From assembly GCF_022647325.1 (NCBI RefSeq), contig NZ_CP071405.1, positions 620,001 through 684,000 of the forward strand: DNA of 64,000 nucleotides, in the 5' to 3' direction. Shown piece by piece: positions 2 to 28,300 of the stretch. The stretch is from Pantoea deleyi. GTDB lineage: Bacteria; Pseudomonadota; Gammaproteobacteria; Enterobacterales; Enterobacteriaceae. Both the position numbers and the translations under genes were made by a program. Under the pieces are notes generated by a model. The model did not search any database. It was not told the DNA's origin and saw nothing but the letters and a program-made list of their open reading frames with translations. Position 1 is the stretch's first letter; each line of letters starts with the position of its first letter.

Positions 2-2080
2 GTCAGTGAGCTGGAAAAAACACAGGGTATTGATCGTGCCAATGCGTACTTAACGAAAACCTTCGTTGAGCGCACATTGCCACGCGTCGAAACCGTTAAC
101 ACTCAATATCGCCTCGCTGAAATGAGCAGCAGCACGTTTAACCTGCTGGCAGGCAATGCCGCAAAACAGGCAGGTGCGGCCAGTGCTGGCGGTCAGCTAT
201 GGGAGCTGATGCGCCGCTTTAACCGCCTGCCTGATATGGCTCGCTCCGACGTTGATTTGCTTGCCGGGGATGTGGCTAATTTCATTCTCGCCGAGCTGGT
301 ACAGGCACACGAGCAGGCCAGCGATGAGTCAGATTATAAATACACGCACCGCGTTTACATGACCGCCGCCACCATCACCCGTGAGCTGAGCCAGACGCCG
401 CCATTATGGGACAAAGTCACGTCACGACTGTTTGACCCGGAGGAAGTTACCCCGGCGATCATGCGTATGCATACGGAAAAATGGTGGAAGGGCCGACTGC
501 GCCGCGTGGCTGCATCATGGCGTGAACATCTTCAGATTGCCCTGGCTAACGTCAGCAAAAAGCATACTCCCTACGCCAGCAGCATGACCGTTTCAGAGTG
601 GCGCGAGCAGAAGCGCCGCACCCGTGAATTTTTGAAGGGGATGGAGCTGGAAGACGAGGAAGGCAACCGCATCAGCCTGATCGAAAAGTACGACGGCAGT
701 GTAGCCAATCCAGCGATCCGTCGCTGCGAGCTGATGACCCGCATTCGCGGATTTGAAAACATCTGCAACGAAATGGGTTTTATCGGCGAGTTCTATACGC
801 TGACCGTCCCCGCGCGCTATCACGCCACAATTAAAACCGGGCATCGGAATCGCAAATGGAACGGTGCCAGCCCGGCTGATACGCAGCGTTATCTATGCAG
901 CGTCTGGCAGAAAATCCGCGCCAAGTTACACCGCGAAGAAATCCGCATTTTCGGGATCCGCGTTGCTGAGCCTCATCATGATGCGACCCCACATTGGCAC
1001 ATGCTCATGTTCATGCGCCCTGAACAGGCTGAGCGCGTGCGAGAAATTATGCGCGATTACGCCTGGCAGGAAGATAGCAGCGAGCTGACGACAGACAAGG
1101 CCCGTAAGGCACGTTTTCACGCCGAGGCTATCGATTCAGAGAAGGGCAGCGCAACAGGTTACGTTGCTAAATACATTTCCAAAAATATCGACGGTTATGC
1201 GCTGGACGGTGAGACAGACGACGAAAGCGGCAAAGACCTTAAGGAAACCGCCTCGGCAGTTTCTGCCTGGGCGGCACGCTGGCACATCCGCCAATTTCAG
1301 TTTGTGGGCGGTGCGCCGGTCACGGTTTACCGCGAGCTGCGCCGCATGGCAGACAGCGAAACCGCGCACGGCCTGAGCGTTGAGTTTGCTGCCGCGCATG
1401 ACGCGGCCGACGCAGGAGACTGGGCCGGATACGTTAACGCCCAGGGCGGGCCGTTCGTGCGCCGTGACGATCTGGCTGTGCGCACCTGGTATCAGGCAAG
1501 CGAAGATATGAATGAGTACGGCGAGGAAACCGTGCGCATCAAGGGCGTTTACGCAACTGAAGTTGGCGACGATACGCCAATTTTAACCCGTCTGATGCAA
1601 TGGAAGATTGTCCCGAAACGTGCCGTTGATTTGGGTTTTGAATTTAAGGACGCGTCTGCGTCCTCTCGGAGTTCTGTCAATAACTGTACGGGAGGTTTGA
1701 GATCTGAGGATTCGAACCCGACGGAAAGTTACGAAAAAATCGACCTGGACGGCATGAGCAGGAAGGAACGGCGGCGGCTTTTAAGTCGGATAAGATCGGA
1801 AAAACCAGAAAAGCGGCATCTGAGGCTGAGGCGGTCGGACAAAGTCGAAGCTGCGTGTGAAAAACTAATAAGCCAGGTGAGAGATTTAAGCGGTGAAACC
1901 ATCAGCCGCGGGCTGGCCGTGCGTCTGATCGGTGGCACGCAGACTAAAATCGGCGGTCATTTTTTCCGCAGCCTGCCTAATGGTGAACTGGCCCGCCCAA
2001 TACTGGAGCAGAAGAGTGTTTCCGTATTAGAACGATTTAATCGTTTAGCAGAAAAACACCGTACAAAAAGCGAAAAATGA
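2..2080 (+). CDS. A: Replication initiation endonuclease gpA (5' end outside window)
   Basis: P2-type rolling-circle initiator. It nicks one strand at the phage origin and becomes joined to the 5' end, starting replication with host Rep and polymerase. The reading frame is open to the left edge, so the N-terminus is missing; about 692 codons are visible against about 760 in P2. The metal-binding HUH motif (PHWHM) lies at nt 989-1003 and the paired catalytic tyrosines (GYVAKY) at nt 1157-1174, the spacing expected for two-tyrosine HUH enzymes. The C-terminal part is basic and Arg/Lys rich. The candidate nick site lies inside the gene, as in P2. Confidence 0.95.
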   Translation, partial: VSELEKTQGIDRANAYLTKTFVERTLPRVETVNTQYRLAEMSSSTFNLLAGNAAKQAGAASAGGQLWELMRRFNRLPDMARSDVDLLAGDVANFILAELVQAHEQASDESDYKYTHRVYMTAATITRELSQTPPLWDKVTSRLFDPEEVTPAIMRMHTEKWWKGRLRRVAASWREHLQIALANVSKKHTPYASSMTVSEWREQKRRTREFLKGMELEDEEGNRISLIEKYDGSVANPAIRRCELMTRIRGFENICNEMGFIGEFYTLTVPARYHATIKTGHRNRKWNGASPADTQRYLCSVWQKIRAKLHREEIRIFGIRVAEPHHDATPHWHMLMFMRPEQAERVREIMRDYAWQEDSSELTTDKARKARFHAEAIDSEKGSATGYVAKYISKNIDGYALDGETDDESGKDLKETASAVSAWAARWHIRQFQFVGGAPVTVYRELRRMADSETAHGLSVEFAAAHDAADAGDWAGYVNAQGGPFVRRDDLAVRTWYQASEDMNEYGEETVRIKGVYATEVGDDTPILTRLMQWKIVPKRAVDLGFEFKDASASSRSSVNNCTGGLRSEDSNPTESYEKIDLDGMSRKERRRLLSRIRSEKPEKRHLRLRRSDKVEAACEKLISQVRDLSGETISRGLAVRLIGGTQTKIGGHFFRSLPNGELARPILEQKSVSVLERFNRLAEKHRTKSEK
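1651..1692 (+). other. Candidate phage replication origin (gpA nick region)
   Basis: P2 gpA acts in cis and nicks within its own gene. This stretch, with the core CTCGGAGTTCTGTCAATAA at about 1664-1682, resembles my recollection of the P2 cleavage region and encodes the VNNCT peptide often seen there in P2-like A proteins. The assignment comes from remembered similarity, not alignment, and the exact nick is not fixed. Confidence 0.4.
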
Positions 2081-2242
2081 TGGCCTACAGCTTGAAATTC
2101 TGAAGTAGCAGTCAATCAGATCATTTAGTTTCCCGACAAGCTGATTTTTGAGATGAGGCGTGGATAAAAATCTTCCTTATCAGCTAGATAAAAAATTAAA
2201 TTGGCTGGGATATTTTTCTTTCTCAACCTGTAAATGCTGTGA

Positions 2243-2262
2243 TACTGTATAAATAGACAGTG
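2243..2262. promoter_or_regulatory. LexA (SOS) box
   Basis: The sequence TACTGTATAAATAGACAGTG contains a perfect CTGT-N8-ACAG core with AT-rich centre and the usual TA flank. It lies 18 bp before the start of the 63-aa gene at 2281 and overlaps a likely -10 element (TATAAA, 2248-2253), so LexA would block transcription of the 2281 and 2491 genes until DNA damage. Coliphage 186 controls its antirepressor gene tum by LexA in the same way. Confidence 0.85.
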
Positions 2263-2280
2263 GTTTGGTGGGGAGGGCAC

Positions 2281-2472
2281 ATGGATAACGGTTTAAAAGA
2301 GCGAGTGATGCTTGAGCGGGTAGAATTGATTGCGCGGCTTACTTCTGAGGGGATCTGCAGGGACCAGGACAGGGTGATCGCCTTGAATCTCATCGCAGAA
2401 ATAGCGCGTAACACCTCAATAGCCAATCAGCAGTTTTCGGTCGTCTTTTCGGCTGTGCCGCTTGATAAGTAA
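2281..2472 (+). CDS. Small SOS-controlled phage protein, function unknown (63 aa)
   Basis: First gene after the LexA box. A strong Shine-Dalgarno (GGGGAGGG, 2270-2277) precedes the ATG at 2281. The protein is predicted largely helical (LKERVMLERVELIARL, then VIALNLIAEIARN), with no membrane segment or signal peptide. I do not recognise the family. Its position directly before a DinI/Tum-like gene (18 bp gap) in the same transcript suggests a role in prophage induction or the SOS response, which is inference. Confidence 0.65.
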   Translation: MDNGLKERVMLERVELIARLTSEGICRDQDRVIALNLIAEIARNTSIANQQFSVVFSAVPLDK

Positions 2473-2490
2473 AATCGAGGTTTCAAAGTT

Positions 2491-2724
2491 ATGCGTATTG
2501 AAATCACACTCGATAAGAATCAAAAAGTCAGTCAGTCGGTGGTAGAGGCTTTCCGGGAAGAAGTAAATAAACGAGTGACCGCGCTATTTCCTGATGCAGT
2601 AGTACAGGTGCGCTAGGGCAGTTACACCAAAATCGAAATGCCCGGTGTAAATGTTGGTGAAGGCTGGTGCAGGCTAAATGATCTGCTTCAGAACGTCTGG
2701 GAAGATGACAGCTGGCTGCATTGA
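2491..2724 (+). pseudogene. DinI/Tum-family gene broken by an in-frame amber stop
   Basis: A GAGG site (2477-2480) precedes ATG 2491. Translation gives a DinI-like N-terminus (MRIEITLDKNQKVSQ) up to Arg41, then TAG at 2614-2616, then the same frame continues with the family's C-terminal half (GSYTKIEMPGVNVG... and VWEDDSWLH) to TGA at 2724. Bridged, the product is 77 residues, the normal size for phage DinI-like proteins. Related proteins, as I recall them, have lysine here (RKGS), so a single AAG to TAG change would explain the break. Unless the stop is suppressed the product is a 41-aa fragment lacking the C-terminal helix. Confidence 0.85.
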
Positions 2725-2738
2725 TAACCGTGCTGATG

Positions 2739-2756
2739 CCAAAATCTCGATTTTGG
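2739..2756. terminator. Perfect hairpin after the DinI-like gene
   Basis: An 8-bp perfect stem, CCAAAATC and GATTTTGG with loop TC, lies 15 bp after the DinI-like stop codon. No T-run follows (CGGCGGC), so it is a hairpin or weak terminator rather than a clear intrinsic terminator. Confidence 0.35.
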
Positions 2757-2798
2757 CGGCGGCACGGTTGAACAACGAGCATTGCGAGGCGTTAGTAA

Positions 2799-3044
2799 AT
2801 GGCGGGAAGTGACGCAAATTATCAGATAGTTTATCGGGGCGATAACCTCGAATGCTTCCATTCCGGCGGTTGGGTTTTCTTCCAGCGGCCTAAACATGCG
2901 GGCGGGGGGTTCTGGCTCGGCAGAACTTACGATTTCGTTTTCATGATCGAGCTGCCGCGACCGGTTTCACTTTATGAAGGCATTGTTTACCTGCAACAGC
3001 TGAAATTTGAAAGCGCTTCACCCTCCAGATTTCACGCTATCTGA
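2799..3044 (+). CDS. Small phage protein of unknown function (81 aa)
   Basis: ATG at 2799 follows an in-frame TAA directly upstream, which fixes the earliest start; GAGG at 2786-2789 could serve as ribosome binding site. The product is Gly/aromatic rich (GGWVFFQRPKHAGGGFWLGR) with no signal peptide or clear membrane helix. I do not recognise the family. It is the last gene before the cos region, at the right end of the packaged chromosome, where P2 keeps non-essential genes. Confidence 0.45.
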   Translation: MAGSDANYQIVYRGDNLECFHSGGWVFFQRPKHAGGGFWLGRTYDFVFMIELPRPVSLYEGIVYLQQLKFESASPSRFHAI

Positions 3045-3062
3045 TCCGTAAAGGAGCCATGC

Positions 3063-3161
3063 ATGCATAATGTGCATGGATCTGCATTAATTTCTGAGGC
3101 GTTCAAACACCCCGCAGGGCCAGTAGCGGCGCTGTTTTTGGAGTGGTATGCAACTGCATGA
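3063..3161 (+). CDS. Possible 32-aa peptide before cos
   Basis: An AAGGAG ribosome binding site (3051-3056) lies 6 bases before ATG 3063. The frame encodes a 32-residue peptide (MHNVHGSALISEAFKHPAGP...). It ends at 3161, 22 bp before the cos nick region. It has a good start signal but no recognised homology, and the region also holds repeated ATGCA motifs that may be packaging sites, so the coding call is tentative. Confidence 0.35.
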   Translation: MHNVHGSALISEAFKHPAGPVAALFLEWYATA

Positions 3162-3183
3162 AAAGCGATGCACAAAGCGGGCA

Positions 3184-3202
3184 GGCGTGGCGGGGATAGC
3201 AT
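3184..3202 (+). other. cos site (19-nt cohesive end of P2-like phage)
   Basis: The sequence GGCGTGGCGGGGATAGCAT, followed by TGCGCGCTGA, matches at nearly every position the P2 cohesive end as I know it (GGCGAGGCGGGGAAAGCAC followed by TGCGCGCTGA). It lies between the A-side genes and the leftward Q gene, where P2 cos must lie in a prophage. Terminase (gpP/gpM) would make the staggered cut here, putting A at the right end of virion DNA and hicAB at the left end. Confidence 0.85.
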
Positions 3203-3366
3203 TGCGCGCTGAGGGTGCAAACATGTATGCCGCAGCGTGCGTCAGCGCCTCGCTGTGTGGTTTGCTGGCTCCGTGTCACCCCAAGTCGGTCGCGATAAAC
3301 CATCCCCTCAGAGGCGCTTATACGCACGCATACTGCATATCACTAAAGCTCGGTTGAGTGGTGCCG

Positions 3367-3405
3367 AAAAGTGACACCAAAAGAACTTGCGGTAGTGTCA
3401 CTTTT
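3367..3405. promoter_or_regulatory. hicAB promoter with perfect inverted-repeat operator
   Basis: Two 11-bp arms, AAAAGTGACAC (3367-3377) and GTGTCACTTTT (3395-3405), are perfect inverted repeats with a 17-bp spacer. A plausible promoter overlaps them: TTGCGG at 3387-3392 and TACTAT at 3409-3414, spacing 16. HicB antitoxins with a C-terminal ribbon-helix-helix domain bind such repeats and repress their own operon, so this is the likely HicB operator. Transcription would begin near 3421, at or next to the hicA ATG. Confidence 0.65.
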
Positions 3406-3420
3406 TGGTACTATAAACCC

Positions 3421-3675
3421 ATGAACAAACGACACCAGAAAACGCTGTCAGATGTGTTCGCCCGGCCGGTTAGCGGTTCAATAAAGTGGAGTGATATTGA
3501 ATCTCTTTTTATCGCTCTCGGTGCGGAGGTTCACGAAAGGGAAGGTTCAAGGATTGCGGTACTGCTGAAAGGGCAAAAGAAAATATTTCACAGGCCGCAC
3601 CCCAGACCGACAACTGACAAGGGGGCGGTTAACTCCATCCGGTTATGGCTCGATAGTTTAGGAATCAGACCATGA
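3421..3675 (+). CDS. hicA: HicA-family toxin (mRNA interferase)
   Basis: 84-aa product beginning MNKRHQKTLSDVF. It matches the enterobacterial HicA subtype with the conserved FHRPHPRP segment, which holds the catalytic histidine of the double-stranded-RNA-binding-like fold; the family cleaves mRNA and arrests growth when free of HicB. The ATG at 3421 was chosen because the promoter/operator ends just upstream and homologues start here. The stop overlaps the hicB start (ATGA), the usual coupling of this pair. It is phage cargo between cos and Q and may stabilise the prophage or interfere with other phages. Confidence 0.9.
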   Translation: MNKRHQKTLSDVFARPVSGSIKWSDIESLFIALGAEVHEREGSRIAVLLKGQKKIFHRPHPRPTTDKGAVNSIRLWLDSLGIRP

Positions 3676-4013
3676 ATAATACACTTAAAATCGACGGCCA
3701 TCTGGCCGTCATCACCTTTGACCCTGAGATCGAAATGTTTCGTGGGGAGTTTGTCGGCCTGAACGGCGGAGCTGATTTCTACGCTTATAGCGTCGAAGAG
3801 TTGAAAAAAGAGGGTTCAATATCACTGGCGGTTTTTCTCGAGGAATGCCGCAAGGATGATATCGAACCTTATAAGACATTCAGCGGCAAGGTGACTACCC
3901 GCCTGACGCCAGAACGTCATCAGGCGCTGGCTGTAACTGCTCAGGCGCACGGTGTTTCTATCAATGAGCTGCTCAACGAAGGCGTTGATTTGGTCATTGA
4001 AAAGCACTCGTAG
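3672..4013 (+). CDS. hicB: HicB-family antitoxin
   Basis: 113-aa partner of the preceding toxin. The N-terminal part (LAVITFDPEIEMFRGEFVGL...DFYAYSVEEL) is the partly degraded RNase-H-like HicB fold that covers the toxin active site. The C-terminal segment (TRLTPERHQALAVTAQAHGVSINELLNEGVD) is a ribbon-helix-helix DNA-binding domain, which fits autoregulation at the inverted repeat before hicA. It overlaps hicA by 4 bp and is followed within 10 bp by a bidirectional terminator. Confidence 0.9.
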   Translation: MNNTLKIDGHLAVITFDPEIEMFRGEFVGLNGGADFYAYSVEELKKEGSISLAVFLEECRKDDIEPYKTFSGKVTTRLTPERHQALAVTAQAHGVSINELLNEGVDLVIEKHS

Positions 4014-4021
4014 CTTTAAGG

Positions 4022-4053
4022 AAAATAAATGGCCTATTTAGGCCGTTTATTTT
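4022..4053. terminator. Bidirectional terminator between hicB and the 539-aa cargo gene
   Basis: The stem is AAAATAAA-GGCC paired with GGCC-TTTATTTT around loop TATTTA, with A-rich and T-rich flanks on both sides. It lies between two converging genes and should stop transcription from each. Confidence 0.75.
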
Positions 4054-4070
4054 ATTTATAAAGCTGTGCT

Positions 4071-5690
4071 TTATTTTTTTGTTGTTTTCGATAATAAGAA
4101 GTCTAAAATAAAGACAGTAATCATAATAATAATGAGGTAAACTCCATCTTTATATTTGGCCATGTTGAGGTAGGAAATGAGGCTGTCTATTTTACTTCCT
4201 TCCAACATTGGGCTAATAACAGGCGTTAAAGATGTGCAGGCTATTAAGCCAAATATCCATTCAGTTCTTTTAGATGTCCTCTCGCTTAGCTCCGCTTCTT
4301 TTAATTTCATAATTTCTGTTTTAGCTTTTAATAAAGAGTTCATGTTGTTTAGGGAAGTCCTAATGTCACTATCATGCAAAAAGCTTAGGACATAGTCTTG
4401 TATTTCTCCAAATCTTCTCGATGTTATCCGTAACCATTCTTCAAAAGTAATTATCTCTTCTCTGATTCTAGCTAAATTGATGCTGCTTTTAGATATGCTT
4501 ATTTCTTGTGATTTTATTTCAAAAAATACCGCTGCCAGATCTCGCATGTCACTTTTGACAAGAGCATCCATCATCAAGTTTTCTGATGAGTAAGTCGCTT
4601 CTTTGTTGCTTATCATGTTAGTATATGTATTTTTAGCTAAAAGCGTTAAACATACCCCTGGCTCGGAGAAAAAGTTATAATCATCAAATGCTCTATGATC
4701 AATGTGTTCTTTGCTTCGGCCGTATTTTATATAATATGAAGATTTGGCAAGAATTGAATTTATCATGACTTCGCTGTTTTTACTATTTTCAGTGGCAGTA
4801 TCCTTTTGGTTTTCGTGTTCAAACACAAAGATGTTTGGTTTGCCTTGCCAGTATCCATATAAAGAATCTCTATCTAGCTTACTAAGCTTGTTATATTTTT
4901 TCCCTTTTTTGAGTGTATAAGATACTATGGCCGCTATATGCCGGGCTATATCACTAATGCTATCTTCTAACTTAAGCGCGCCCGCATAATCGACGTACTC
5001 TTCGTTTAAATTCAAACTATCAATGTTGGGGGTTTTAAGCTCAGATTTCAATAATGATATGTACGCTTCTTTGATTTTCCTAAAGTTATGGCGCAATGCA
5101 TAATTAACACATTCTGATTCAATGTCTAGATGCTTTTTCACATAAGAAAATGGACTAGTTATATAATTTAATTTCCTTAAGGGCATGTTTACCCTTTCAT
5201 CAATGAATTCCTTTATATCACCTTCGTAGGTTCCATCATCCATAAATGTGACTTGTGTAATGCCAATTTCATACACTCTCACCATGGGAAATAAATATCG
5301 CTGGTCATCGTTAGGGTCTATGAAGAAAGGTTTAATAGAGCCAATAATTGAGTTTGAGAAGAATCCACCTTGTAAGTGCATAACTTTTTCTTGTGAAAGG
5401 CGCATGTTTATACACTTCATAAATCCAGCTTTAGTGAAGTCACATAAATCATCTAGGTCTATATTTTTTAACCCTGTCACGGTTAAGCCTAGAAAATCAT
5501 GTGAATATTCAAGTTGAAGCTCTTGATTAGAAATCGCACCTTTATTGGAATAGTAAAGTTTATTGCTGGGTGTTAAAACTGAAGAAAAAACACCTGTTTC
5601 TATGAGTTTAGAAGCTAAGTCTTCTGAATCGGAATATGTTGGGGTGCTAATGGTGTAATTGTGCCAAACTGCCGCATCAGTGATTTCCAT
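4071..5690 (-). CDS. AT-rich phage cargo gene: unrecognised protein with two C-terminal membrane helices (539 aa)
   Basis: I do not recognise this protein. It begins MEITDAAVWHNYTIS; the start at 5690 has a modest GGA site, while an upstream start at 5741 would add 17 residues. The first ~450 residues look soluble and mixed alpha/beta. A helical stretch (SLLKAKTEIMKLKEAELSER) leads into TM1 (about residues 478-496) and TM2 (about 516-533), with a lysine-rich end. This layout recalls CorA-like or Abi-type membrane effectors, but no GMN motif is present. It lies in the cos-Q cargo region beside hicAB, opposite to hicAB, and its base composition is much more AT-rich than the phage core, which suggests separate acquisition. 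A phage-exclusion role is inference. Confidence 0.85.
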   Translation of the reverse strand: MEITDAAVWHNYTISTPTYSDSEDLASKLIETGVFSSVLTPSNKLYYSNKGAISNQELQLEYSHDFLGLTVTGLKNIDLDDLCDFTKAGFMKCINMRLSQEKVMHLQGGFFSNSIIGSIKPFFIDPNDDQRYLFPMVRVYEIGITQVTFMDDGTYEGDIKEFIDERVNMPLRKLNYITSPFSYVKKHLDIESECVNYALRHNFRKIKEAYISLLKSELKTPNIDSLNLNEEYVDYAGALKLEDSISDIARHIAAIVSYTLKKGKKYNKLSKLDRDSLYGYWQGKPNIFVFEHENQKDTATENSKNSEVMINSILAKSSYYIKYGRSKEHIDHRAFDDYNFFSEPGVCLTLLAKNTYTNMISNKEATYSSENLMMDALVKSDMRDLAAVFFEIKSQEISISKSSINLARIREEIITFEEWLRITSRRFGEIQDYVLSFLHDSDIRTSLNNMNSLLKAKTEIMKLKEAELSERTSKRTEWIFGLIACTSLTPVISPMLEGSKIDSLISYLNMAKYKDGVYLIIIMITVFILDFLLSKTTKK

Positions 5691-5735
5691 ATTTAATCCA
5701 TCATGATATGAAAAAATAAAAATATTACACCATAT

Positions 5736-5780
5736 TACCATTTGTTGCGCTACAAAGTTTTATGTAGACAACAAATGGTA
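5736..5780 (-). terminator. 12-bp perfect inverted repeat between Q and the cargo gene
   Basis: Arms TACCATTTGTTG (5736-5747) and CAACAAATGGTA (5769-5780) are perfect, with an inner CTAC/GTAG pair. On the minus strand the hairpin follows the Q stop by 33 bp and is followed by AT-rich sequence with T-runs, so it may end the P-Q transcript. It also lies 45 bp before the cargo gene start and could be an operator. Confidence 0.5.
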
Positions 5781-5813
5781 TCTTATGAGCGAAGTTATGA
5801 GAGTAAGCTAACT

Positions 5814-6854
5814 TTACCCATTACTTTCAAGTACATAAGGTTTAAAAGAAATTATATCTTCACCAAGCCACATATTAATCTCTTTCATACGTTCCTGAAG
5901 CGGTGTCAGTTCGTTTCTTACAAAGACCTGCGCCGCCTTCACTGCATCACCAAATCCGCCGGTGTTATCCGGGATAATCCCCATCATCTGCGGCGGCACG
6001 CGGTGCGCGCTTAACAGGTCGTCGCGGCTGGCCTTCTTGATGTTAAAGAAATCGTCTTTCGTTGCCACCTCGCTGAGCGGCAGAATCTTGATCCCGTCCG
6101 GCTTTCCGTTTGGCGCGTACATAAACAGGTTGCGGAAGTTACCCAGCCCTTTCGTGTCGCGCATCGCCTGGCGCATCCGGTCAACGTCGCTGCTGCTCTG
6201 CGCCGCGTCGGTCATATACAGGATGTAACCGGCGTGCGCGCCGTTCTGGTAATACTTGCGGCGGAACAGCGTTGCCGCCTCATTCAGCCAGGCGGAGTTA
6301 AGCGCGCTGAGGTATTCCGGCAGGCCGTAGAGCTCCTGATTAATATCCGGCTCCAGCAGGTGAAACACGCTGCCGGCCGAAAATTCGTGCGGCTCTTTCC
6401 AGTCATTCACAAACCAGTAAACGCCGTCCTTCACGCCTCTGCGGGTAAATTTGGCCGGGGTGGTTTCAAGGCGCAGCGGCTTACCCAGGCCATTGCGGCG
6501 CAGCTCGGCAAAGGCGTTGCCGAACACCAGATAATCAAGCGCAAACTTGCTGAACTCCTGCTGACTCATCATCGGGTGCGGAATAAACGTTGATGCCAGA
6601 ATGTTGCGCTTTACGTAAATCGGCGAGCTGTGATGCACGGCCGAGCGCAGGCTTTTAGCCAGCCCGCTAAAACTGACCGGCGGCTCAAACCAGCGCCCGT
6701 TACCGATGCACTCTGCATAATCCAGAATGTCGCGCTTATCCATAACCGGCGTGGGGTCGCCAAAGGTAAACGCCTCGGCGTGCTGCTGCGGTGCGGTTGC
6801 CTGTACCGGCTGCGCGGTGGCGGTGTGAGCCTTGCGGCCTCTGCGTTTGCTCAT
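5814..6854 (-). CDS. Q: Portal protein gpQ
   Basis: 346 aa, matching the P2 portal length (344). P2 Q forms the dodecameric ring at one capsid vertex through which DNA is packaged and to which the tail connects. Family features seen are the N-terminal basic segment (MSKRRGRKA), TFGDPTPVMDKRDILDY, PPVSFSGLAKSLRSAVHHSSPIY and, near the C-terminus, LLSAHRVPPQMMGIIPDN. The start ATG overlaps the terminase stop (TGATG), so translation is probably coupled to P. It is transcribed leftward, opposite to the O-S operon, as in P2. Confidence 0.96.
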   Translation of the reverse strand: MSKRRGRKAHTATAQPVQATAPQQHAEAFTFGDPTPVMDKRDILDYAECIGNGRWFEPPVSFSGLAKSLRSAVHHSSPIYVKRNILASTFIPHPMMSQQEFSKFALDYLVFGNAFAELRRNGLGKPLRLETTPAKFTRRGVKDGVYWFVNDWKEPHEFSAGSVFHLLEPDINQELYGLPEYLSALNSAWLNEAATLFRRKYYQNGAHAGYILYMTDAAQSSSDVDRMRQAMRDTKGLGNFRNLFMYAPNGKPDGIKILPLSEVATKDDFFNIKKASRDDLLSAHRVPPQMMGIIPDNTGGFGDAVKAAQVFVRNELTPLQERMKEINMWLGEDIISFKPYVLESNG

Positions 6855-8617
6855 CAGTAAAATTCCAGAATAGAGGGGTTAGCGCCGCCGCTGGCTGCGG
6901 TAAGCGGTTCGTTTAAAAGTGCGTGCATGATGGCCCAGGCGACGTCGGCGTGGCTGGCCTCTTCGCTGCGGCTCGCCTCATAGGTTGAGCGGTTGCCGCT
7001 GGCCGTCATGGTTTTGCGGATAGCCATAAATGACTGCGTGATATCCGTCGCCCCGGCGTCATACTCAAGCCGCCCGCTGCTGATGGTGTCTTTCGCCTTG
7101 AGTACCATTGCGGTTTTCACTTCCGGTGAGTATTTGATCTCGCGCGCGGCCGGGTAAAACTGGCGTACCAGCTGGAAAACACCCTGGCCGATGCCGGTTG
7201 CATCCACGCCGATATATTCCACAGTGTATTTTTTCGTTAAGTCCTCAATTGATTTCGCCTGCGCGGCAAAGTCCATGCCCCGCCACTGGTGACGCTCTAG
7301 CACGCGGAATTTACCGCCCGCAACGAGCGGCGGCGCGATAACCGCACAGCCTGCGCTGTCGCCGGTATGCGACGGGTCATACCCAATCCAGACAGGCCGG
7401 TAAGCAAACGGGCGCGGCAGATAGGGGTTAAAGTCCTCCCACTCTTCCAGGCTGTCGATCATGCAGCTCTGCAGCTCGGCGAACGGGAACACGCTCGCCT
7501 CGTCGTCGACAAACTCACACATCAGCAGGTTCTGATATTCCGCCGGGCTGTATTCAAGCTGCAGCTGGTCAATGTCGAACAGGTTGCAGCCGCCGGTCAG
7601 CGCATCCTCAACCGTGACAATCTGCCGCCACTGTCCGTCACCGCACAGCGCGCCTTTTGCCAGGTGAGAATGCGACAGGTCTATCTCGATGCGATCATCT
7701 TTGCTGCGCCGCCCCCTGTTGAACAGCTCGCCCGACCAGAACGGATAGGCGCTGTGCGACAGGGCTGACGGCGTGGAAAAGTAGGTCGTGCGCCACTTTT
7801 TGTGCAGCGACATGCCGCTGGCGACTTTGCGCAGCTCCTGGAATTTCGGTATCCAGAAATATTCGTCCAAGTACAGATTGCCGGTGTAGCTCTGCGCGGT
7901 ACGCACGTTCGTGCCGAGGAATATCAGGCGCGCGCCGTTCGGCAGCACGATGGGATCGCCTTTCAGGTTAACGTCAGCCTGGCGGGCGAAGTCAATGATG
8001 TAGTTTTTGAAGACGTGCGCCTGCGCCTTGCTGGCCGAAAGAAATATCTGGTTGCGGCCGGTGGTCAGCGCGTCTATCAGCGCCTCGCGGGCAAAGTAGA
8101 AAGTTGCGCCAATCTGGCGGGACTTCAGGATATTGCGGATGCGGTGAGTCAGCCCTGCGCGGTGCCAGTTGAGCTGATACTCAAAGCAGTTATCCATAAA
8201 CACGCCGGTGAGTTTGTCGATCTGCTCGTCGCTGAACTCATTTTTAACAACCGGCTGGCGCTCGCCTTTATTGCGGTTGCGTACGTTCGGATTTAAGTCG
8301 GCCTCGTTGCCGCTGCTGCGGTAGCGCTCAACGCGGGCAAGGCGCTCAATCTGACGGCCGAGCGCGTCTATCTCTTTGTAATCACCATTACCCTTTACCT
8401 CTTTCATGATGAGCTGGATCAGCCGGGCTTCCATGCTGGATTCAACACGACTGATGGGCGCAACGTCGTCCCACGCGTCGCGCAGCTTCCAGCTCTGCAC
8501 GGTTGGCGTTTTCTGTCCGAGCGTCTCCGCAATCTGGCGCACGGAATAACCCTGCCAGTAAAGCAGCGCAGCCTGACGGCGCGGATCGCTGATGATGGTT
8601 GTCGGTGTCGTTTTCAT
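6854..8617 (-). CDS. P: Terminase large (ATPase/nuclease) subunit gpP
   Basis: 587 aa, close to P2 gpP (590). The packaging motor pumps DNA into the procapsid and cuts at cos. An N-terminal helix-turn-helix (LLYWQGYSVRQIAETLGQ, about residues 17-34) is followed by a P-loop-like segment (KSRQIGATFYFARE, about 162-175), a Walker B-like LYLDEYFW and the nuclease region starting GYDPSHTGDSAG (about 410). The start at 8617 (MKTTPTT) was preferred to the longer frame because homologous sequence begins just after it. The gene diverges from O. Confidence 0.96.
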   Translation of the reverse strand: MKTTPTTIISDPRRQAALLYWQGYSVRQIAETLGQKTPTVQSWKLRDAWDDVAPISRVESSMEARLIQLIMKEVKGNGDYKEIDALGRQIERLARVERYRSSGNEADLNPNVRNRNKGERQPVVKNEFSDEQIDKLTGVFMDNCFEYQLNWHRAGLTHRIRNILKSRQIGATFYFAREALIDALTTGRNQIFLSASKAQAHVFKNYIIDFARQADVNLKGDPIVLPNGARLIFLGTNVRTAQSYTGNLYLDEYFWIPKFQELRKVASGMSLHKKWRTTYFSTPSALSHSAYPFWSGELFNRGRRSKDDRIEIDLSHSHLAKGALCGDGQWRQIVTVEDALTGGCNLFDIDQLQLEYSPAEYQNLLMCEFVDDEASVFPFAELQSCMIDSLEEWEDFNPYLPRPFAYRPVWIGYDPSHTGDSAGCAVIAPPLVAGGKFRVLERHQWRGMDFAAQAKSIEDLTKKYTVEYIGVDATGIGQGVFQLVRQFYPAAREIKYSPEVKTAMVLKAKDTISSGRLEYDAGATDITQSFMAIRKTMTASGNRSTYEASRSEEASHADVAWAIMHALLNEPLTAASGGANPSILEFY

Positions 8618-8761
8618 ACCGGCAAGGCTACCGGTGCCGAAAATGGCGCGCCTGCTGTCCCTGTTTGCTGATGCATCAGCGGGCTGGCATTCGTTGAGGG
8701 ATTGTGTGGCGACAGGGAAACTGGCCCCGAACCGACCCAACACCTGACCGGAGCCTGATTA
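8618..8761. promoter_or_regulatory. Divergent late promoter region P / O
   Basis: In P2 this gap holds two back-to-back late promoters activated by Ogr. Here the 144-bp gap separates P and O in the same arrangement. The nearest thing to an Ogr box (TGT-N12-ACA) is TGT at 8705-8707 with ACT 12 bases later, which is one mismatch and not well placed for O. The region call rests on gene arrangement. Confidence 0.45.
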
Positions 8762-9610
8762 ATGGCAGCAATCAAATCAAAGCGTTTTCGTATCGCAGTT
8801 GAAGGCGCAACCACCGACGGCCGTGTCATTTCCCGCGACTGGATTTCGCAGATGGCGAAAAACTACAGCCCGGAAATGTACGGCGCCCGCATCAACATGG
8901 AGCATATCCGGGGCTATGCCGCTGACAGCACTTTCCGCCGCTTTGGTGACGTGACCGCCGTCGAGGCTGAAGAAATCGGCGACGGGCAGCTCAAGGGCAA
9001 GCTGGCGCTGTTCGGCTGGATTGATCCGACGCCTGAGCTGGTCGAACTGACCAAAGCGCGCCAGAAAATCTACACCTCCATTGAAGTTAACCCGGAGTTC
9101 GCCGACACGGGCGAGGCGTATCTGGTCGGCCTGGCCGTCACCGACGACCCGGCAAGCCTCGGCACCGAGATTCTGAGCTTCAGCGCCACGGCAAAAGTTA
9201 ATCCGCTGGCGTCCCGCAAGCTGGATAAAGGCAACCTCTTTACCGCCGCAGAAGAAACCGTGATCGAGTTTGAAGAAGCAGCGGAGCCGTCTCCGTCCCT
9301 GCTGGCGCGAATCTCGGCGATGTTCTCTGCGAAAAAGAAAACCGACGGCGAGCAGTTCGCCGACGTCAGCGCGGCAGTAACGGCCGTCGCCGAGCAGGTG
9401 CAGCTGAACGCGGAGAGTCAGGCGCAGGAGCTGTCGGCGCTGGAGCAGTCCGTCAGCGCACGCCTTGAGGCTATCGAGCAGCAGGCCGGGGAAGACCGCG
9501 CCGCTTTCGCTGCGCTGCAGGGCCAGCTTTCGCAGACCGATGGCAGCTTTAACCGCCGCCCGGCGGCAACCGGCAGCGATCCGAAGTCCGGCGCGCAGAC
9601 CGACTGCTAA
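8762..9610 (+). CDS. O: Capsid scaffold and protease gpO
   Basis: 282 aa (P2 gpO is 284). The N-terminal half is the serine protease that matures the capsid, connector and scaffold proteins; the C-terminal half is the scaffold that sizes the procapsid. Asp19, His48 and Ser106 line up with the Asp-His-Ser triad reported for P2 gpO. The C-terminal part is rich in Ala/Gln/Glu and likely helical (TAVAEQVQLNAESQAQELSA). First gene of the rightward O-N-M-L operon. Confidence 0.95.
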   Translation: MAAIKSKRFRIAVEGATTDGRVISRDWISQMAKNYSPEMYGARINMEHIRGYAADSTFRRFGDVTAVEAEEIGDGQLKGKLALFGWIDPTPELVELTKARQKIYTSIEVNPEFADTGEAYLVGLAVTDDPASLGTEILSFSATAKVNPLASRKLDKGNLFTAAEETVIEFEEAAEPSPSLLARISAMFSAKKKTDGEQFADVSAAVTAVAEQVQLNAESQAQELSALEQSVSARLEAIEQQAGEDRAAFAALQGQLSQTDGSFNRRPAATGSDPKSGAQTDC

Positions 9611-9662
9611 TCAGGCGTGGCCTGAACGTTAAAACCCAACACAGAGATAAACAGGAACGCCA

Positions 9663-10775
9663 ATGCGCAAGAATACCCGCTTTAAGTTTAACCAGTTTAT
9701 GACCCGCCTCGCCGAGCTGAACGGCGTCGAAACCGACGACATGAACAAGAAATTTACCGTTGAGCCGTCGGTCACGCAGACGCTGATGAACCGCGTGCAG
9801 GAGTCTTCCGATTTCCTGACCCGCATCAACATCGTGCCGGTGTCCGAAATGAAGGGCGAGAAAATCGGGATCGGCGTATCCGGCTCGATTGCCAGCGTGA
9901 CCGACACGGCAGGCGGCGACGAGCGCGAAACCGCTGATTTCGCCGCGCTGGATAAGCAGGGTTATGAGTGTGTGCAGGTCAACTACGATTTCCACATCCG
10001 CTATAACACCCTCGACCTGTGGGCGCGCTATGAAGATTTTCAGGCCCGTCTGCGTGACGCCATCGTGAAGCGCCAGGCACTTGACCGCATCATGATCGGC
10101 TTCAACGGCGTGACCCGTGCCAAAACCTCGAACCGCGCCAAATTCCCGATGCTGCAGGACGTGGCCGTAGGCTGGCTGCAGAAGTACCGCAACGATGCCC
10201 CGGCGCGCGTGATGAGCAAAATCACCGAGGAAGACGGCACCGTCGTCTCTGAAAAAATCCGCGTCGGCAAAAACGGCGACTATGCCAGCCTCGATGCGCT
10301 GGTGATGGATGCCACTAACACCCTGATCGAGCCGTGGTATCAGGAAGACCCGGAGCTGGTTGTTATCGTGGGCCGTCAGCTGCTGGCTGATAAATACTTC
10401 CCGATCGTCAACCAGTCGCAGGCCAACACCGAGCAGCTGGCCGCTGACGTCATTATCAGTCAGAAACGCATCGGCGGTCTGCCAGCGGTGCGCGTGCCGT
10501 ACTTCCCGGCCGACGCCATGTTTATCACCCGCACCGATAACCTGTCGATTTACTTCCAGGAAGGCACGCATCGCCGCCTGATTGACGAGGTGCCGAAGCG
10601 CGACCGCATCGAAAACTATGAGTCAATCAACGAGGACTACGTGATCGAGGATTACGCGGCCGGTTGCCTGGTTGAAAACATCGAAGTCGGCGAGTACGCG
10701 GCACCTGCTGCCACCACACAGGAAGCAGCGGCAGAAAGCGGCAGCGCTGACGGCACCGAAAAAACGGAGGCGTAA
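9663..10775 (+). CDS. N: Major capsid protein precursor gpN
   Basis: 370 aa; P2 gpN is 357 and adopts the HK97 fold after cleavage of its N-terminus by gpO. The beginning (MRKNTRFKFNQFMTRLAELN) and internal blocks (NRVQESSDFLTRINIVPV, RYEDFQARLRDAIVKRQALD, RVPYFPADAMFITRTDNLSIYF) are typical of the P2 family. The Ala/Glu-rich C-terminal tail after VGEYAAP accounts for the extra length. Located after the scaffold and before the small terminase, as in P2. Confidence 0.96.
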   Translation: MRKNTRFKFNQFMTRLAELNGVETDDMNKKFTVEPSVTQTLMNRVQESSDFLTRINIVPVSEMKGEKIGIGVSGSIASVTDTAGGDERETADFAALDKQGYECVQVNYDFHIRYNTLDLWARYEDFQARLRDAIVKRQALDRIMIGFNGVTRAKTSNRAKFPMLQDVAVGWLQKYRNDAPARVMSKITEEDGTVVSEKIRVGKNGDYASLDALVMDATNTLIEPWYQEDPELVVIVGRQLLADKYFPIVNQSQANTEQLAADVIISQKRIGGLPAVRVPYFPADAMFITRTDNLSIYFQEGTHRRLIDEVPKRDRIENYESINEDYVIEDYAAGCLVENIEVGEYAAPAATTQEAAAESGSADGTEKTEA

Positions 10776-10778
10776 CGC

Positions 10779-11447
10779 ATGTTAAGTCCTGCCCGACGTC
10801 ACCGCATGCGCCAGCAGGCTATCGAAGCCTCGCAGAACGCCGACAACCCGCTGCGCCACGCCAGCGGCTATGAGCAGATGCTCATCAAGCTGAACGACGA
10901 CAAGCGCCGCCTGAAGAAAGTGCACTCTAACGAGCGCAAGGCGGAAATGAAGCGTCAGCTGCTGCCTGAGTACCTGCCGTGGGTGTCCGGCGTGCTGGAG
11001 AAAGGCAAAGGCGCACAGGATGCCGTACTGATGACCGTCATGATCTGGCGGCTCGATGCGGGCGACGTGCCCGGCGCGCTGGAGATTGCCCGGTACGCGC
11101 TGAAGCATGGCCTTGTATCGCCTGACGGCTTTAAGCGCGCCAGCCTGCCTTATCTGCTGGCCGAGGAAGTCGCCAGCGCGGCAACGCGCGCCTGGACGGC
11201 AAAAGCGCCGGTCGATGTTGACCCGCTGCTGGCAACCATTGCGATGACGGAATCTGAAGACATGCCCGACCAGGTGCGCGCCAAGCTGCACAAGATAACC
11301 GGGTATGTGCTTCGCGATGCGGGCAGGGCTTCGGAGGCGATGACCCACCTTGCAAGAGCGCATCAGCTGCACGACGGCTGCGGCGTCAAAAAAGACATTG
11401 AGCGGCTGGGAACGGCGATGAAAAAAGAAGCTATCGCCCGCCGCTGA
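10779..11447 (+). CDS. M: Terminase small subunit gpM
   Basis: 222 aa. In P2, gpM recognises cos and with gpP forms the terminase. The beginning MLSPARRHRMRQQAIEA and the central block RLDAGDVPGALEIARYALKHGL are family hallmarks. It starts 3 bp after N and probably depends on read-through translation. It would recognise the cos region near 3184. Confidence 0.94.
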   Translation: MLSPARRHRMRQQAIEASQNADNPLRHASGYEQMLIKLNDDKRRLKKVHSNERKAEMKRQLLPEYLPWVSGVLEKGKGAQDAVLMTVMIWRLDAGDVPGALEIARYALKHGLVSPDGFKRASLPYLLAEEVASAATRAWTAKAPVDVDPLLATIAMTESEDMPDQVRAKLHKITGYVLRDAGRASEAMTHLARAHQLHDGCGVKKDIERLGTAMKKEAIARR

Positions 11448-11539
11448 CCGAACGCGACCCCGCGCACGGGCGGCAGGACGGCAACGCACTTTCAGTGTCT
11501 GCGCCGTCCTCCACCGCCCACCTATTTCAAAGGCCGATT

Positions 11540-13915: not shown

Positions 13916-14361
13916 GCGGGCTGCAGCTGGTAAATGACCGGCTGGAGGCGCTTATCAGCAGTCTGTCAGCCCCCGCACGAAAAGAGATGGCGCGAACCAT
14001 TGGCCGCAGGCTGCGCACGAGTCAGCAGCAGAATATTAAGCGCCAGCAGGCCCCAGACGGTACGCCGTTTAAGCCCCGCAAAACGCAGCCGGTGCGCAGC
14101 AAAAAGGGCCGGATACAGCGCGAGATGTTCGCAAAGCTGCGCACGGCTAAATACATGAAGATGCAGGCCAGCCCCAATGAAGCCGTGATCGAGTTTGCGG
14201 GTAACGTGCAGCGCATGGCCCGCGTGCATCATTACGGGCTGCGTGACCGGCCGTCACGGAAAGGTAAAGAAGTTCAGTATGAGGCGCGCCCATTATTGGG
14301 GATTAGTGAGCGCGATATGGAGTTGCTGCAAAATGAAATACTCAAACGGCTAGGCGGTTAA
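13912..14361 (+). CDS. S: Tail completion protein gpS
   Basis: 149 aa (P2 S is about 150), of the Mu gpG/P2 S virion morphogenesis family. Basic protein with RRLRTSQQQNIKRQQAPDGTPF and VHHYGLRDRPSRKGKEVQYEARPLLGIS. Coupled to R by ATGA. It is the last gene before an AT-rich cargo insertion on the opposite strand. Confidence 0.94.
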   Translation: MSGLQLVNDRLEALISSLSAPARKEMARTIGRRLRTSQQQNIKRQQAPDGTPFKPRKTQPVRSKKGRIQREMFAKLRTAKYMKMQASPNEAVIEFAGNVQRMARVHHYGLRDRPSRKGKEVQYEARPLLGISERDMELLQNEILKRLGG

Positions 14362-14383
14362 GATATGCGCGCACTCAGGAGTA

Positions 14384-15034
14384 TCAGTGTTTAAGTTTAG
14401 TTCTAATGTAACTTGTCATATTGCTTAGCTCTGATTCAAATTGTTTTTTAAACACATCTTCATCGCCAGCATCAAATATATCATCATGTATTTGATGCTG
14501 TTTATCTTGTAAGTGTTCCTTATCAAATTTTTCATAATGCGGGCTTCTTAATATCAAGTAATTTTTTAGGCTGATTAATAATTTCTTTTCTTGCCTTTGT
14601 AGCACTTTCCACATGTCACTTAATTGATTATCCCACAATGCCTCGGCTTCAATTAAGTTTGCATAAATATCAGTTTTGACCTCAACTACTCGGTTCCAGC
14701 GGTTTTCATAAGCTTTATAAAGTCCATGATATCGAACGCCATCATCATTCAATTTCTTACTTTCCTCTTCTGAAGGCTGTGGCATTTCTTGTGATGACAT
14801 AAAAGGGTTGCGAACGTCATTCACCGCATCTCGATACTTGAAAAGGTTAATAAGTAGATTTTTAGACAGGTTGTAATTAGCCTGACCGTTAATCTGTTTT
14901 TTCCATGTGCCTAATCCTTTGAAAGCAATTATTGCACCAGTCAAAGCTGCTCCTGTGACGATAGTGTCTTTTAATGCCCCCATGATTTCAGGAAGAGTAA
15001 GTTTTATAAATTCATATAAATCAGATGCTGTCAT
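14384..15034 (-). CDS. AT-rich cargo gene between S and V: unknown membrane-anchored protein (216 aa)
   Basis: No family is recognised. One hydrophobic segment lies near the N-terminus (about residues 24-40, IVTGAALTGAIIAFKGL), followed by a long charged, helical, probably cytoplasmic part with many Lys/Glu/Asp. The ribosome binding site AAGAGGAAAG precedes the ATG at 15034. The gene points against the tail operon and is far more AT-rich than its neighbours. P2 carries an unrelated non-essential gene (orf30) in this S-V gap, so this is a known cargo slot. A role in lysogen phenotype or phage exclusion is inference. Confidence 0.8.
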   Translation of the reverse strand: MTASDLYEFIKLTLPEIMGALKDTIVTGAALTGAIIAFKGLGTWKKQINGQANYNLSKNLLINLFKYRDAVNDVRNPFMSSQEMPQPSEEESKKLNDDGVRYHGLYKAYENRWNRVVEVKTDIYANLIEAEALWDNQLSDMWKVLQRQEKKLLISLKNYLILRSPHYEKFDKEHLQDKQHQIHDDIFDAGDEDVFKKQFESELSNMTSYIRTKLKH

Positions 15035-18648: not shown

Positions 18649-19235
18649 TGGCAAAGGTAACGCTTGATAAGAGTGGCCTGGCTAAATCGGCCGGCACACT
18701 GACGATTTTTAACTTTGACGCGGTAAGCGGTGAGTTTACCGGCTCCAGCAATGAGTTTCTGGCTCAGGGCGTTGGCCTGCCTGCTAATGCCTGCATTATA
18801 GCGCCGCCCCCCGCTGAAGCAGGTAGCGTGGCGCTTTATCTTAATGGCAGCTGGCAGGTCATTGCCGATCATCGCGGTGAAACGGTTTATTCAGTTAATG
18901 ACGGCTCAGCAGTATTAATCAGCGCACCGGGCGAATACCCGGCGGACACAACGCCGCTCAAACCTGCAACCACCTGGGATAAATGGGATGGTGAAAAATG
19001 GTTAACTGACACCGACGCGCAGCGGAACGCAGTGGTGAGTAAGGCCGCCAGTGAAAAATCAGCGATGATCAATGAGGCAAACGGCGTCACTCAGGCATGG
19101 CAGACTCAGCTGCTGCTTGGGATTATTACGGAAGAAGATAAAGCCTCGCTCACGGCATGGATGAAATATATTCAGGCAGTACAGGCGGTTAATGTTACTG
19201 ATGCGCCCGATATTATCTGGCCGCCAAAACCTTAA
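18648..19235 (+). CDS. G: Tail fibre assembly chaperone gpG
   Basis: 195 aa Tfa-like protein that helps fold or trimerise the H fibre C-terminus. Seen are MAKVTLDKSGLAKSAGTLTI, KPATTWDKWDGEKWLTD and the C-terminal Tfa block QLLLGIITEEDKASLTAWMKYIQAVQAVNVTDAPDIIWPPKP-like end. It lies inside the invertible segment, so it always moves together with its matching H end. Confidence 0.93.
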   Translation: MAKVTLDKSGLAKSAGTLTIFNFDAVSGEFTGSSNEFLAQGVGLPANACIIAPPPAEAGSVALYLNGSWQVIADHRGETVYSVNDGSAVLISAPGEYPADTTPLKPATTWDKWDGEKWLTDTDAQRNAVVSKAASEKSAMINEANGVTQAWQTQLLLGIITEEDKASLTAWMKYIQAVQAVNVTDAPDIIWPPKP

Positions 19236-19530
19236 TAATAACGGTGCCCGCGGCGATATAATCCCAGCATCGGTTTACTGCAAAAAAATACCCGCTCCCT
19301 CAAAGTTAGGAACAGGCATAAGGTCGCGGTGAGGCGCTATGAATACCATGAGTATTCAGATCTTATTTTCATCTTTTTATCGTGCAAAGAAGTGAGCGTT
19401 TCTGGCTTCTTCCTTTGCATTCCGCCGGTAGGAGCGGCTGGAATTACACGATAATGCTTAGTCTATAAGCATGAAAGTTAATAACAAGCGTAAGCGGTAA
19501 ATAAAAATCGAACTAAAATGGCTCGTCTGA
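19236..19530. other. Structured intergenic region between convergent G and G' genes
   Basis: Some 295 bp without a credible gene. It holds a hairpin GAATAC/GTATTC (19341-19357), a predicted three-way junction at 19380-19451 (outer stem TCGTG/CACGA; inner stems CAAAG-AAG/CTT-CTTTG and ATTCC-GCCG/CGGC-GGAAT) and a perfect 7-bp hairpin ATGCTTA/TAAGCAT (19454-19472). Because two genes converge here it may act as a terminator, but there are no clear T-runs. Confidence 0.5.
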
Positions 19531-19932
19531 TTACACTGGCACTTCAGGCCATGCGATGCTTACGGTATCCTCCACATTTATGCGCATCAGCATGACTCGA
19601 TATTTTCTCCAGGCGACAAGCTGGCTTGCTTCATCATCTGTTGCTATCCCTAAATCGCTCGCATCCTGCAGGGGCTGTATAGCCGCGTCGGCTTCAGCCC
19701 TCAATCTGCTGCGTTTGTCTTCTGCCTGGCTGATTAGCTCCTCTGCTGTAGGCGGCGGCGGCTCAGTCAGGCACGGAAGCATGTCAGCACCGCAGGCAAT
19801 CAGCTTTCCTTCAGCCTGTCCGGAAAGCAAATCAGACCATTTTTTATCAGTGATTTTTACGGCATCATCAGGGATAACCAGATTGATGCTGGTATCGTAA
19901 AAAGCATTTGTAGAAGGTGAATATTTTTTCAT
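19531..19932 (-). CDS. Alternative tail fibre assembly protein (silent orientation)
   Basis: 133 aa, MKKYSPSTNAFYDTSI..., with the Tfa C-terminal pattern ASQLVAWRKYRVMLMRINVEDTVSIAWPEVPV. Its ATG follows the stop of the alternative fibre end without a gap. It is on the minus strand in this orientation, cut off from the late promoter, and would be expressed after inversion. Confidence 0.88.
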   Translation of the reverse strand: MKKYSPSTNAFYDTSINLVIPDDAVKITDKKWSDLLSGQAEGKLIACGADMLPCLTEPPPPTAEELISQAEDKRSRLRAEADAAIQPLQDASDLGIATDDEASQLVAWRKYRVMLMRINVEDTVSIAWPEVPV

Positions 19933-20301
19933 TCAGTACCCCAGCGCCAGCCAGTAAATTCCCTGGCTAGTTGAGCCAGAGCCTGTATTAGTAAGATCAA
20001 AAGACGCTTTATTGCGGAATTGCGCTCCCACACCGTATTCCCCCGACAGTGGTAAAGATGAACCCTTGCAAGCCATAACAGCGACGCCCGCTGTCGGGAA
20101 CTCAATTGGCAGCACAACCACCGTCGTTGCTTTCTGTGTAAATGATCCATACCCCCATTGCAAAATCAGGCCATTTGGTAGTCGGGTATAGCCATTTCCC
20201 GATTTAACAGCCGAGAAAAAACTCATATCAGGCAACTGGCCGGTGCCATTACCTACGGTCTTTTTTGCCGCGTCGCCTAAACCGAGGTTTTTGAGAAACA
20301 A
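19933..20301 (-). pseudogene. Alternative C-terminal end of tail fibre H (silent cassette)
   Basis: Not a decayed gene but a promoterless 3' cassette. From the crossover (FLKNLGLGDAAKKTVGNG) it encodes about 120 residues ending YWLALGY, with a typical short fibre tip (LPNGLILQWGYGSFTQK...TVVVLPIEF). After inversion it would be fused to H residue 199 and give a fibre of about 319 aa. The sequence differs fully from the active tip, so host range should change. Confidence 0.9.
20273..20297 (-). repeat. Right invertase crossover site (inverted copy)
   Basis: Exact reverse complement of 18185-18209, placed 65 bp before the invertase start codon, the same layout as Mu gin and P1 cin. Confidence 0.93.
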
Positions 20302-27359: not shown

Positions 27360-27428
27360 GTGAAAATGTGTTGCTCATTTTGGTATTTAAGAGTATTAAA
27401 GCTACGAGCTTACAGGGAGACGCCACCG

Positions 27429-27647: not shown

Positions 27648-27667
27648 TTTGATGGGTCCATAAAAGA

Positions 27668-27691
27668 AACCCCGCACTGGCGGGGTTTTTT
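27668..27691 (+). terminator. Intrinsic terminator after ogr
   Basis: Stem AACCCCGC/GCGGGGTT with loop ACTG, followed by a T-run. Ends the FI-ogr transcript. Confidence 0.92.
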
Positions 27692-27698
27692 GTGGGCG

Positions 27699-28263: not shown

Positions 28264-28300
28264 TGGTGGCCCCTGCTGGGTTTGAACCAGCGACCAAGCG
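28264..28300. other. Probable attR core (3' end of ileX)
   Basis: The prophage ends directly at the tRNA 3' half. The exact core cannot be set because the other copy (attL) is left of the window. Confidence 0.5.

Follow-up and report, generated by a model that had tools for sequence, protein, structure and literature searches.

Gene X in the Q-A slot of a P2-like prophage of Pantoea deleyi: a candidate phage-exclusion protein with two predicted C-terminal membrane helices

The described anti-phage systems that are closest in position to the gene studied here are old and tin of phage P2 and the systems reported by Rousset et al. (2022; PMC9122126) and Vassallo et al. (2022; PMC9519451), which lie in the slot between the genes Q and A near cos. 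In E. coli this slot was met 18,150 times in 1,650 arrangements, anti-phage activity was demonstrated for old-tin and some further slot systems, and the cargo also includes partition genes and a toxin (Rousset et al., PMC9122126). Four of 21 new systems were found in the same slot (Vassallo et al., PMC9519451). By architecture, the closest described proteins are Cap1 (PMC12642688) and Csx23 (PMC11014256), two-helix effectors of type III CRISPR systems in which a cytosolic ligand leads to disturbance of the membrane.

The gene described here, called gene X, lies in a 64,000-nucleotide stretch of the P. deleyi contig NZ_CP071405.1 (positions 620,001 to 684,000), which as a whole is referred to as the window and to which all coordinates apply. 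Gene X shares the Q-A slot near cos with the P2 systems and, like other cargo of this hotspot, it is AT-rich and occupies a position whose content varies between prophages. Unlike that cargo, X and four members of a sister family introduced below match no PADLOC model, Old included. The slot in the window and its borders contain the following features:

77-2080, plus strand: replication gene A (Phage_GPA, E 4.2e-123), one border of the slot
3184-3202, plus strand: cos-like site with 16 of the 19 bases of the P2 cos motif (3 mismatches)
3358-3675, plus strand: HicA-type toxin (E 5.6e-10), neighbouring cargo
3672-4013, plus strand: HicB-type antitoxin (E 9.6e-14)
4031-4044, no strand assigned: short GC-rich inverted repeat between A- and T-runs, possible terminator for the convergent genes hicB and X
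4071-5690, minus strand: gene X, encoding a 539-aa protein with a soluble part followed by two predicted C-terminal membrane helices
5736-5780, minus strand: 18-pair RNA hairpin between the stop of Q and the start of X
5814-6854, minus strand: portal protein Q (phrog_68, E 3.5e-168), the other border of the slot, on the same strand as X

This map agrees with an earlier note on the window, which had placed an AT-rich gene in the cos-Q cargo region of a P2-like prophage next to a toxin-antitoxin pair. Gene X comprises 539 codons with an ATG start and has a GC content of 0.33-0.38 in four 500-base bins, as compared to 0.57-0.63 in the bins of 6001-11500; it forms an AT-rich block between Q and A and is convergent with hicAB. 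Small P2-type genes are found in the same flank of X as the cos-like site and gene A. The cos-like site was sought with a 19-mer that we take to be the P2 cos sequence; it matched once in the window, as compared to a mean of 0.05 matches in shuffled sequences, with one match in 5 of 100 shuffles. An alternative, longer open reading frame of gene X begins at 5741. This longer reading is unlikely, because the homologues start in the alignment at the M-x-I...W-H position of X, a few of them with four additional residues, and because the leader contains the 18-pair hairpin.

The hairpin at 5736-5780 is more stable than expected (z -4.6 for the whole leader and z -7.8 for the hairpin alone) and is followed on the minus strand by a T-rich stretch. 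A similar fold is present in two homologous loci (L001 and L002), and visual inspection of the sequence following Q showed none in the other loci compared; the element may terminate Q or belong to a leader. Short inverted repeats of the type found between hicB and X occur at four sites in 3200-6000, as compared to a mean of 2.0 in shuffles, and no Rfam match to a non-coding RNA was obtained in 2000-7000. Within the HicAB pair (3358-4013), an inverted repeat at 3361-3377 and 3395-3411 is perhaps an operator, and the true hicA start may be further in. Elsewhere in the window, a tRNA-Met gene at 28264-28339 (minus strand) is a possible integration site of the prophage, and further GC dips (0.44-0.48) at 14001-15000, 19001-20000 and 27001-28000 could be other cargo.

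A search of approximately 5.8 billion proteins, with 7994 candidates scored, returned 20 matches including X itself. Eighteen of the other 19 are full-length (535-540 aa) and one has 312 aa; the same 20 were returned by a profile search of proteins and by the single-sequence search. The source labels, where given, are Serratia, Klebsiella, Enterobacter, E. coli, Pantoea and Citrobacter. X belongs to phrog_24946 of PHROGs (full-length match, E 2.7e-130), which is listed there with function unknown. In line with the earlier note, which knew no matching family, none of the Pfam and NCBIfam models fits X, sequence searches of the PDB gave no credible match, and PADLOC-DB 2.0.0 returned no family for X at E values up to 1 and none for the four sister proteins. 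Clear relatedness to a family of metabolic or structural proteins, which the note had named as evidence against its proposal, was likewise sought and not found. Some further matches were set aside: weak ones to SKA1 (E 0.029, under its own cut-off), to dynein-docking chains (E 0.13 and weaker) and to the helicase-binding domain of DnaG (2 of 19 members, best E 0.0027) were taken as helical noise, and a match in genome G023 restricted to residues 417-473 (E 4.9e-4) was dropped. Our literature search, which ran outside supplementary tables, those of Rousset et al. and of the DefensePredictor paper among them, found neither WP_001165947 nor phrog_24946 by name and no description of the X family; the passages of the DefensePredictor paper that it covered do not name the family.

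The X family is thinly spread over the collections searched. A search of 50,697 phage records with two members as queries was negative, and the family was found in 2 of 72,556 plasmid records. Full-length X was present only in its own genome among overlapping sets of 60, 369, 392 and 394 genomes at growing distance, and a scan of genome contigs for the family pattern yielded 86 pattern stretches with no relative among them. With one member as query, a DNA search at the given sensitivity matched 13 of 5426 E. coli genomes (14 records), and the homologue L009 as query gave no match in E. coli genomes; in the tree, P0014 and WP_001165947 are two different E. coli alleles. Seven codon comparisons were made within the family. 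Five of them gave dN/dS values of 0.08-0.16 (one of the five at dS 1.3), the sixth pair, which is nearly unchanged, had a value of 0.26, and the seventh was saturated. As there are 18 full-length homologues and low dN/dS values in five of the six usable pairs, gene X is a real gene under purifying selection. Five of the 20 sequences aligned are broken copies (the viral contigs L013, L014 and L015, as well as L020 and L023), and in L013-L015 the frame is lost at a short run of A around codon 261-265. Homopolymer loss in these copies may reflect a cost of the gene or switching. Sequencing error is possible as well, above all in L023, since several phage genes of this record are annotated as frame-broken.

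All 12 viral contigs that include both borders have the order Q-X-A, and the remaining two of the 14 distinct contigs begin inside X with gene A beyond. Similarly, the Q-A interval is the site of X in all seven E. coli records opened of the 14 found. It is the sole annotated gene of the slot in five of these seven (L016, L019, L020, L021 and L022), where L020 is a broken copy and the gene table of L016 is known to be incomplete; hicA is not annotated alongside X homologues in the E. coli slots opened. The cos-like site is located between X and A in the window and in L001, L002, L009 and L010, and between Q and X in L003, L006, L007, L008, L011, L013, L014 and L015 and in the E. coli records L016, L018, L019, L021 and L022 (L012, L020, L023 and L155 were left out of this comparison). 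With X found on either side of cos, the gene thus has the character of mobile cargo that uses the full Q-A interval.

The earlier note had proposed a survey of the same slot in other P2-like prophages. A portal protein search covering 60 host-genus genomes, the own genome included, was positive in 27 at E values up to 1e-60 (36 rows). Thirty-four of the 36 portal regions were taken, leaving out the own genome and one row of genome G012. No X was found in these 34 loci, and a gene A match lies within reach in 30 of them. The 30 slots so delimited measure 1.2-6.5 kb, have GC contents of 0.36-0.52 and are mostly unlike each other, the alike pairs being L064/L081 and L072/L077. Among the 58 slot proteins of at least 150 aa, the PADLOC tally includes models of Old, AriA, AbiLi, PD-Lambda-5, PD-T4-6, RT-Protease and PDC-M11A, several of these being overlapping matches of one ATPase type, and the Pfam tally includes protein kinase, D12 methylase, reverse transcriptase and putAbiC. 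The slot proteins also match ArsB (arsenite pump) and FMN reductase, Pfam families outside defence. Judged from the tally and the translations, one same-genus P2-like prophage (L055) seems to carry ArsB together with an FMN reductase-like gene in its slot.

A search of whole genomes with the X profile gave weak matches to its N-terminal half in five further genomes. The open reading frames at these positions encode 551-609 aa and have the same plan as X. With one of them as query, 200 proteins were obtained, and none of the 120 listed has a Pfam domain. They form a sister family of approximately 551 aa that is as unannotated as the X family and whose labels include Yersinia, Vibrio, Photobacterium, Pseudoalteromonas, Desulfobacteraceae, Cloacimonetes and Spirochaetales. 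The X and sister profiles align over 501 columns (hhalign probability 99.3%, E 1.5e-20, 17% identity), phrog_24946 matches two sister proteins (E 3.6e-19 and 1.4e-14), and a tree of 67 rows shows a clean split, with support of 100/99 for the sister family and 90/95 for the X family. A partial Azotobacter plasmid protein groups with the X family through a long branch; it is matched by phrog_24946 (E 3.9e-35), gave one weak PADLOC match (PD_DExK, E 0.03) and is adjoined by a YafQ/RelB pair. The full-length sister family is new here. It gave no match in the phage, plasmid and viral-contig collections and was seen solely in bacterial genome contigs.

We took 29 sister loci from genome contigs (in L121 and L122 the gene is in two frames). 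No recurrent partner gene emerged, as no cluster was present in more than 8 of the 29 loci; the commonest cluster, a tyrosine recombinase, was found anywhere in the flanks of eight. In L103, L104 and L105 the sister gene directly follows such a recombinase, and in L103 and L104 the two lie beside an apparent guaB-guaA pair, an arrangement like that of a small island which recalls satellites. The neighbour scan took in the two closest genes on each side of the sister genes, 108 of the 155 neighbours located within 6 kb; the PADLOC results for these 108 and for the 58 slot proteins are tallies, with a table for one member. Four loci were found beside a defence gene. In L096, GajA (E 2.9e-273) is directly downstream of the sister gene, and the lone tallied GajB match fits the next open reading frame. 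In L114, by coordinates, HamB (1105 bits) is directly upstream and a SIR2 gene lies ~6 kb upstream. Also by coordinates, the end of a BrxL gene lies ~1.2 kb upstream in L112, where two contigs of the genome carry such an end, and a SIR2 gene lies ~1.3 kb downstream of the sister gene in L118. A DpdE match fitting L109 by coordinates looks like a general match to an SNF2-type helicase and was not counted. Localization covered 10 of the 29 loci for HamB and 28 (L106 left out) for BrxL, DpdE and SIR2. The proportion of 4 of 29 loci beside GajA, HamB, BrxL or SIR2 is a description without a matched control, with few families located; SIR2 genes are present in 14 of 28 sister genomes and within the sister locus in two.

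Within the protein, three segments of gene X stand out:

4089-4145, minus strand: predicted membrane helix 2, residues ~516-534, followed by a short tail
4203-4259, minus strand: predicted membrane helix 1, residues ~478-496, with an FG...P signature conserved in the X and sister families
4680-4850, minus strand: conserved soluble block, residues 281-337, W-x-G-[KR]-P ... Q ... D-x-R-x-F-x-D

As the earlier note had claimed for X, two hydrophobic C-terminal segments, taken from hydropathy as predicted helices, are present in 19 of 19 X members (residues ~478-496 and 516-534), and also in all 19 sister members examined of 45. The short C-terminal tail contains Lys/Arg in X members, and the tails vary among the sisters. 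Proline is absent from residues 401-475 in all 19 X members. Heptad periodicity stands out in 401-440, where 32 of 2000 shuffles reached the same strength (among six stretches and two periods compared), but not over 405-475 as a whole (617 of 2000 shuffles). The coiled coil claimed earlier is thus no more than plausible. The 15 residues before helix 1 carry a net positive charge in 14 of the 19 X members, no net charge in four (X among them) and -1 in one; the charge is positive in all 19 sisters examined. This pattern favours a cytosolic soluble part without settling the orientation, and for X itself the indication is weak.

Among eight stretches compared in the X family, conservation peaks at helix 1 (mean pairwise identity 0.62); the core 241-475 has a value of 0.50, and the most variable stretches are 181-240 (0.31) and 501-539 (0.34). 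In the sister family, the best stretch is 321-420 (0.57), with helix 1 at 0.55. Common to both families are G143, W281, G283, K/R284, P285, Q295, D331, R333, D337, L348, E429, F480, G481 and P494.

This plan resembles that of Cap1 (PMC12642688) and Csx23 (PMC11014256), in which a cytosolic regulatory part is likewise joined to membrane helices. In Csx23 the helices are N-terminal (PMC11014256), whereas those of X are C-terminal. The slot neighbours of X include no CRISPR or nucleotide-cyclase gene, unlike type III CRISPR effectors, and the likeness is one of analogy, not of homology. A soluble part, a long helix and a C-terminal pair of membrane helices are also found in CorA Mg2+ channels. 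CorA-type effectors of type III CRISPR systems with these same parts exist. Kinship of X with CorA was rejected: against 30 CorA-type proteins from related genomes, chosen by G-[MVI]-N near the end, hhalign gave a probability of 1.1% for X and 8.3% for the sister family, no PF01544 match was obtained in the Pfam scans of X and its relatives, and no GMN-type motif between the helices was seen in the alignment columns.

The slot position and the neighbours of the sister family together make an anti-phage function of gene X likely, with a probability of about 0.65. The phage-exclusion proposal of the earlier note is partly supported: the position, the cargo character and the lack of a known family are confirmed, and the hotspot slot and the defence neighbours at 4 of 29 sister loci point to defence. 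Non-defence genes use the slot as well, so that phage exclusion itself stays putative; the sensor-like and abortive properties suggested in the note are likewise putative. A more complete reading, which we put forward tentatively and at somewhat less than even odds, is that X is a one-gene phage-exclusion protein that senses infection and damages the membrane. Residues ~1-400 would be cytosolic and hold the conserved recognition core WxG[KR]P...Q...DxRxFxD, and a proline-free, probably helical stalk (401-475) would join this core to a hairpin of two helices within the inner membrane, so that both chain ends would be cytosolic. In the lysogen, X would wait in the membrane. Upon superinfection, the soluble part would meet a phage product or an infection signal, X would rearrange via the stalk, and the hairpins would open the membrane or perturb it, which would halt the infection while sacrificing the cell. 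The membrane action would thus be contained within one protein, without a neighbouring signal maker. We infer the defence function, topology, trigger, oligomerisation and membrane damage from what is known of other systems.

X might also be anti-phage by another route, tethered to the inner membrane, with the conserved soluble core as an enzyme or a blocker at the site of DNA entry or at phage membrane complexes and the helices as a mere anchor. The many charged and polar residues that both families keep in the soluble core (W281, G283, K/R284, P285, Q295, D331, R333, D337 and E429) resemble an active or binding site, the region of helix 2 is as poorly conserved (0.34 in 501-539) as expected of an anchor, and helix 1 of the sisters is not their best conserved stretch (0.55 as compared to 0.57 in 321-420). 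However, the Pfam, NCBIfam and PDB searches revealed no enzyme signature, and the conservation of helix 1 in the X family (0.62, the highest of the eight stretches) goes beyond the need of an anchor; we consider this route unlikely. A toxin restrained by a neighbouring gene, hicAB or another, would account for the adjoining hicAB in the window, the YafQ/RelB pair beside the Azotobacter relative and the several broken natural copies (L013, L014, L015, L020 and L023). Such a toxin-antitoxin system is nevertheless highly improbable, as X is the sole annotated Q-A gene in five of seven E. coli records and the commonest other cluster is limited to 8 of the 29 sister loci, a conserved cognate partner being found in neither setting.

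It is rather doubtful that X has no anti-phage role at all and serves lysogenic conversion or prophage maintenance, for example in envelope stress or in a plasmid-like manner. Such cargo does exist, since an ArsB-type gene occupies the slot of one same-genus prophage and partition and toxin genes occur in that of E. coli (PMC9122126), and 25 of 29 sister loci are without a located defence neighbour, few families having been located. Yet the searches revealed no metabolic or structural homology, sister loci lie beside GajA, HamB, BrxL and SIR2, and X behaves as cargo on both sides of cos, all of which argues against this reading.

Extending the one-gene phage-exclusion reading to the sisters, X and the sister family may constitute one unrecognised superfamily of single-chain immune proteins, in which a putative new soluble fold with the core WxG[KR]P / DxRxFxD would sense infection and drive a membrane hairpin directly, without a second messenger or partner, and of which one branch would have become cargo of P2-like phages. 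We regard this generalization as doubtful. The putative superfamily would range over enterobacteria, vibrios, pseudomonads, halomonads, Desulfobacterota and beyond.

If X is protective, a protein family without a curated model, often alone in a known slot, would join the antiviral repertoire of P2-like prophages, and via the sister family the repertoire of several other bacterial lineages would be extended as well. The residues common to both families would then provide a list of mutational targets for a one-protein sensor controlling a membrane hairpin.
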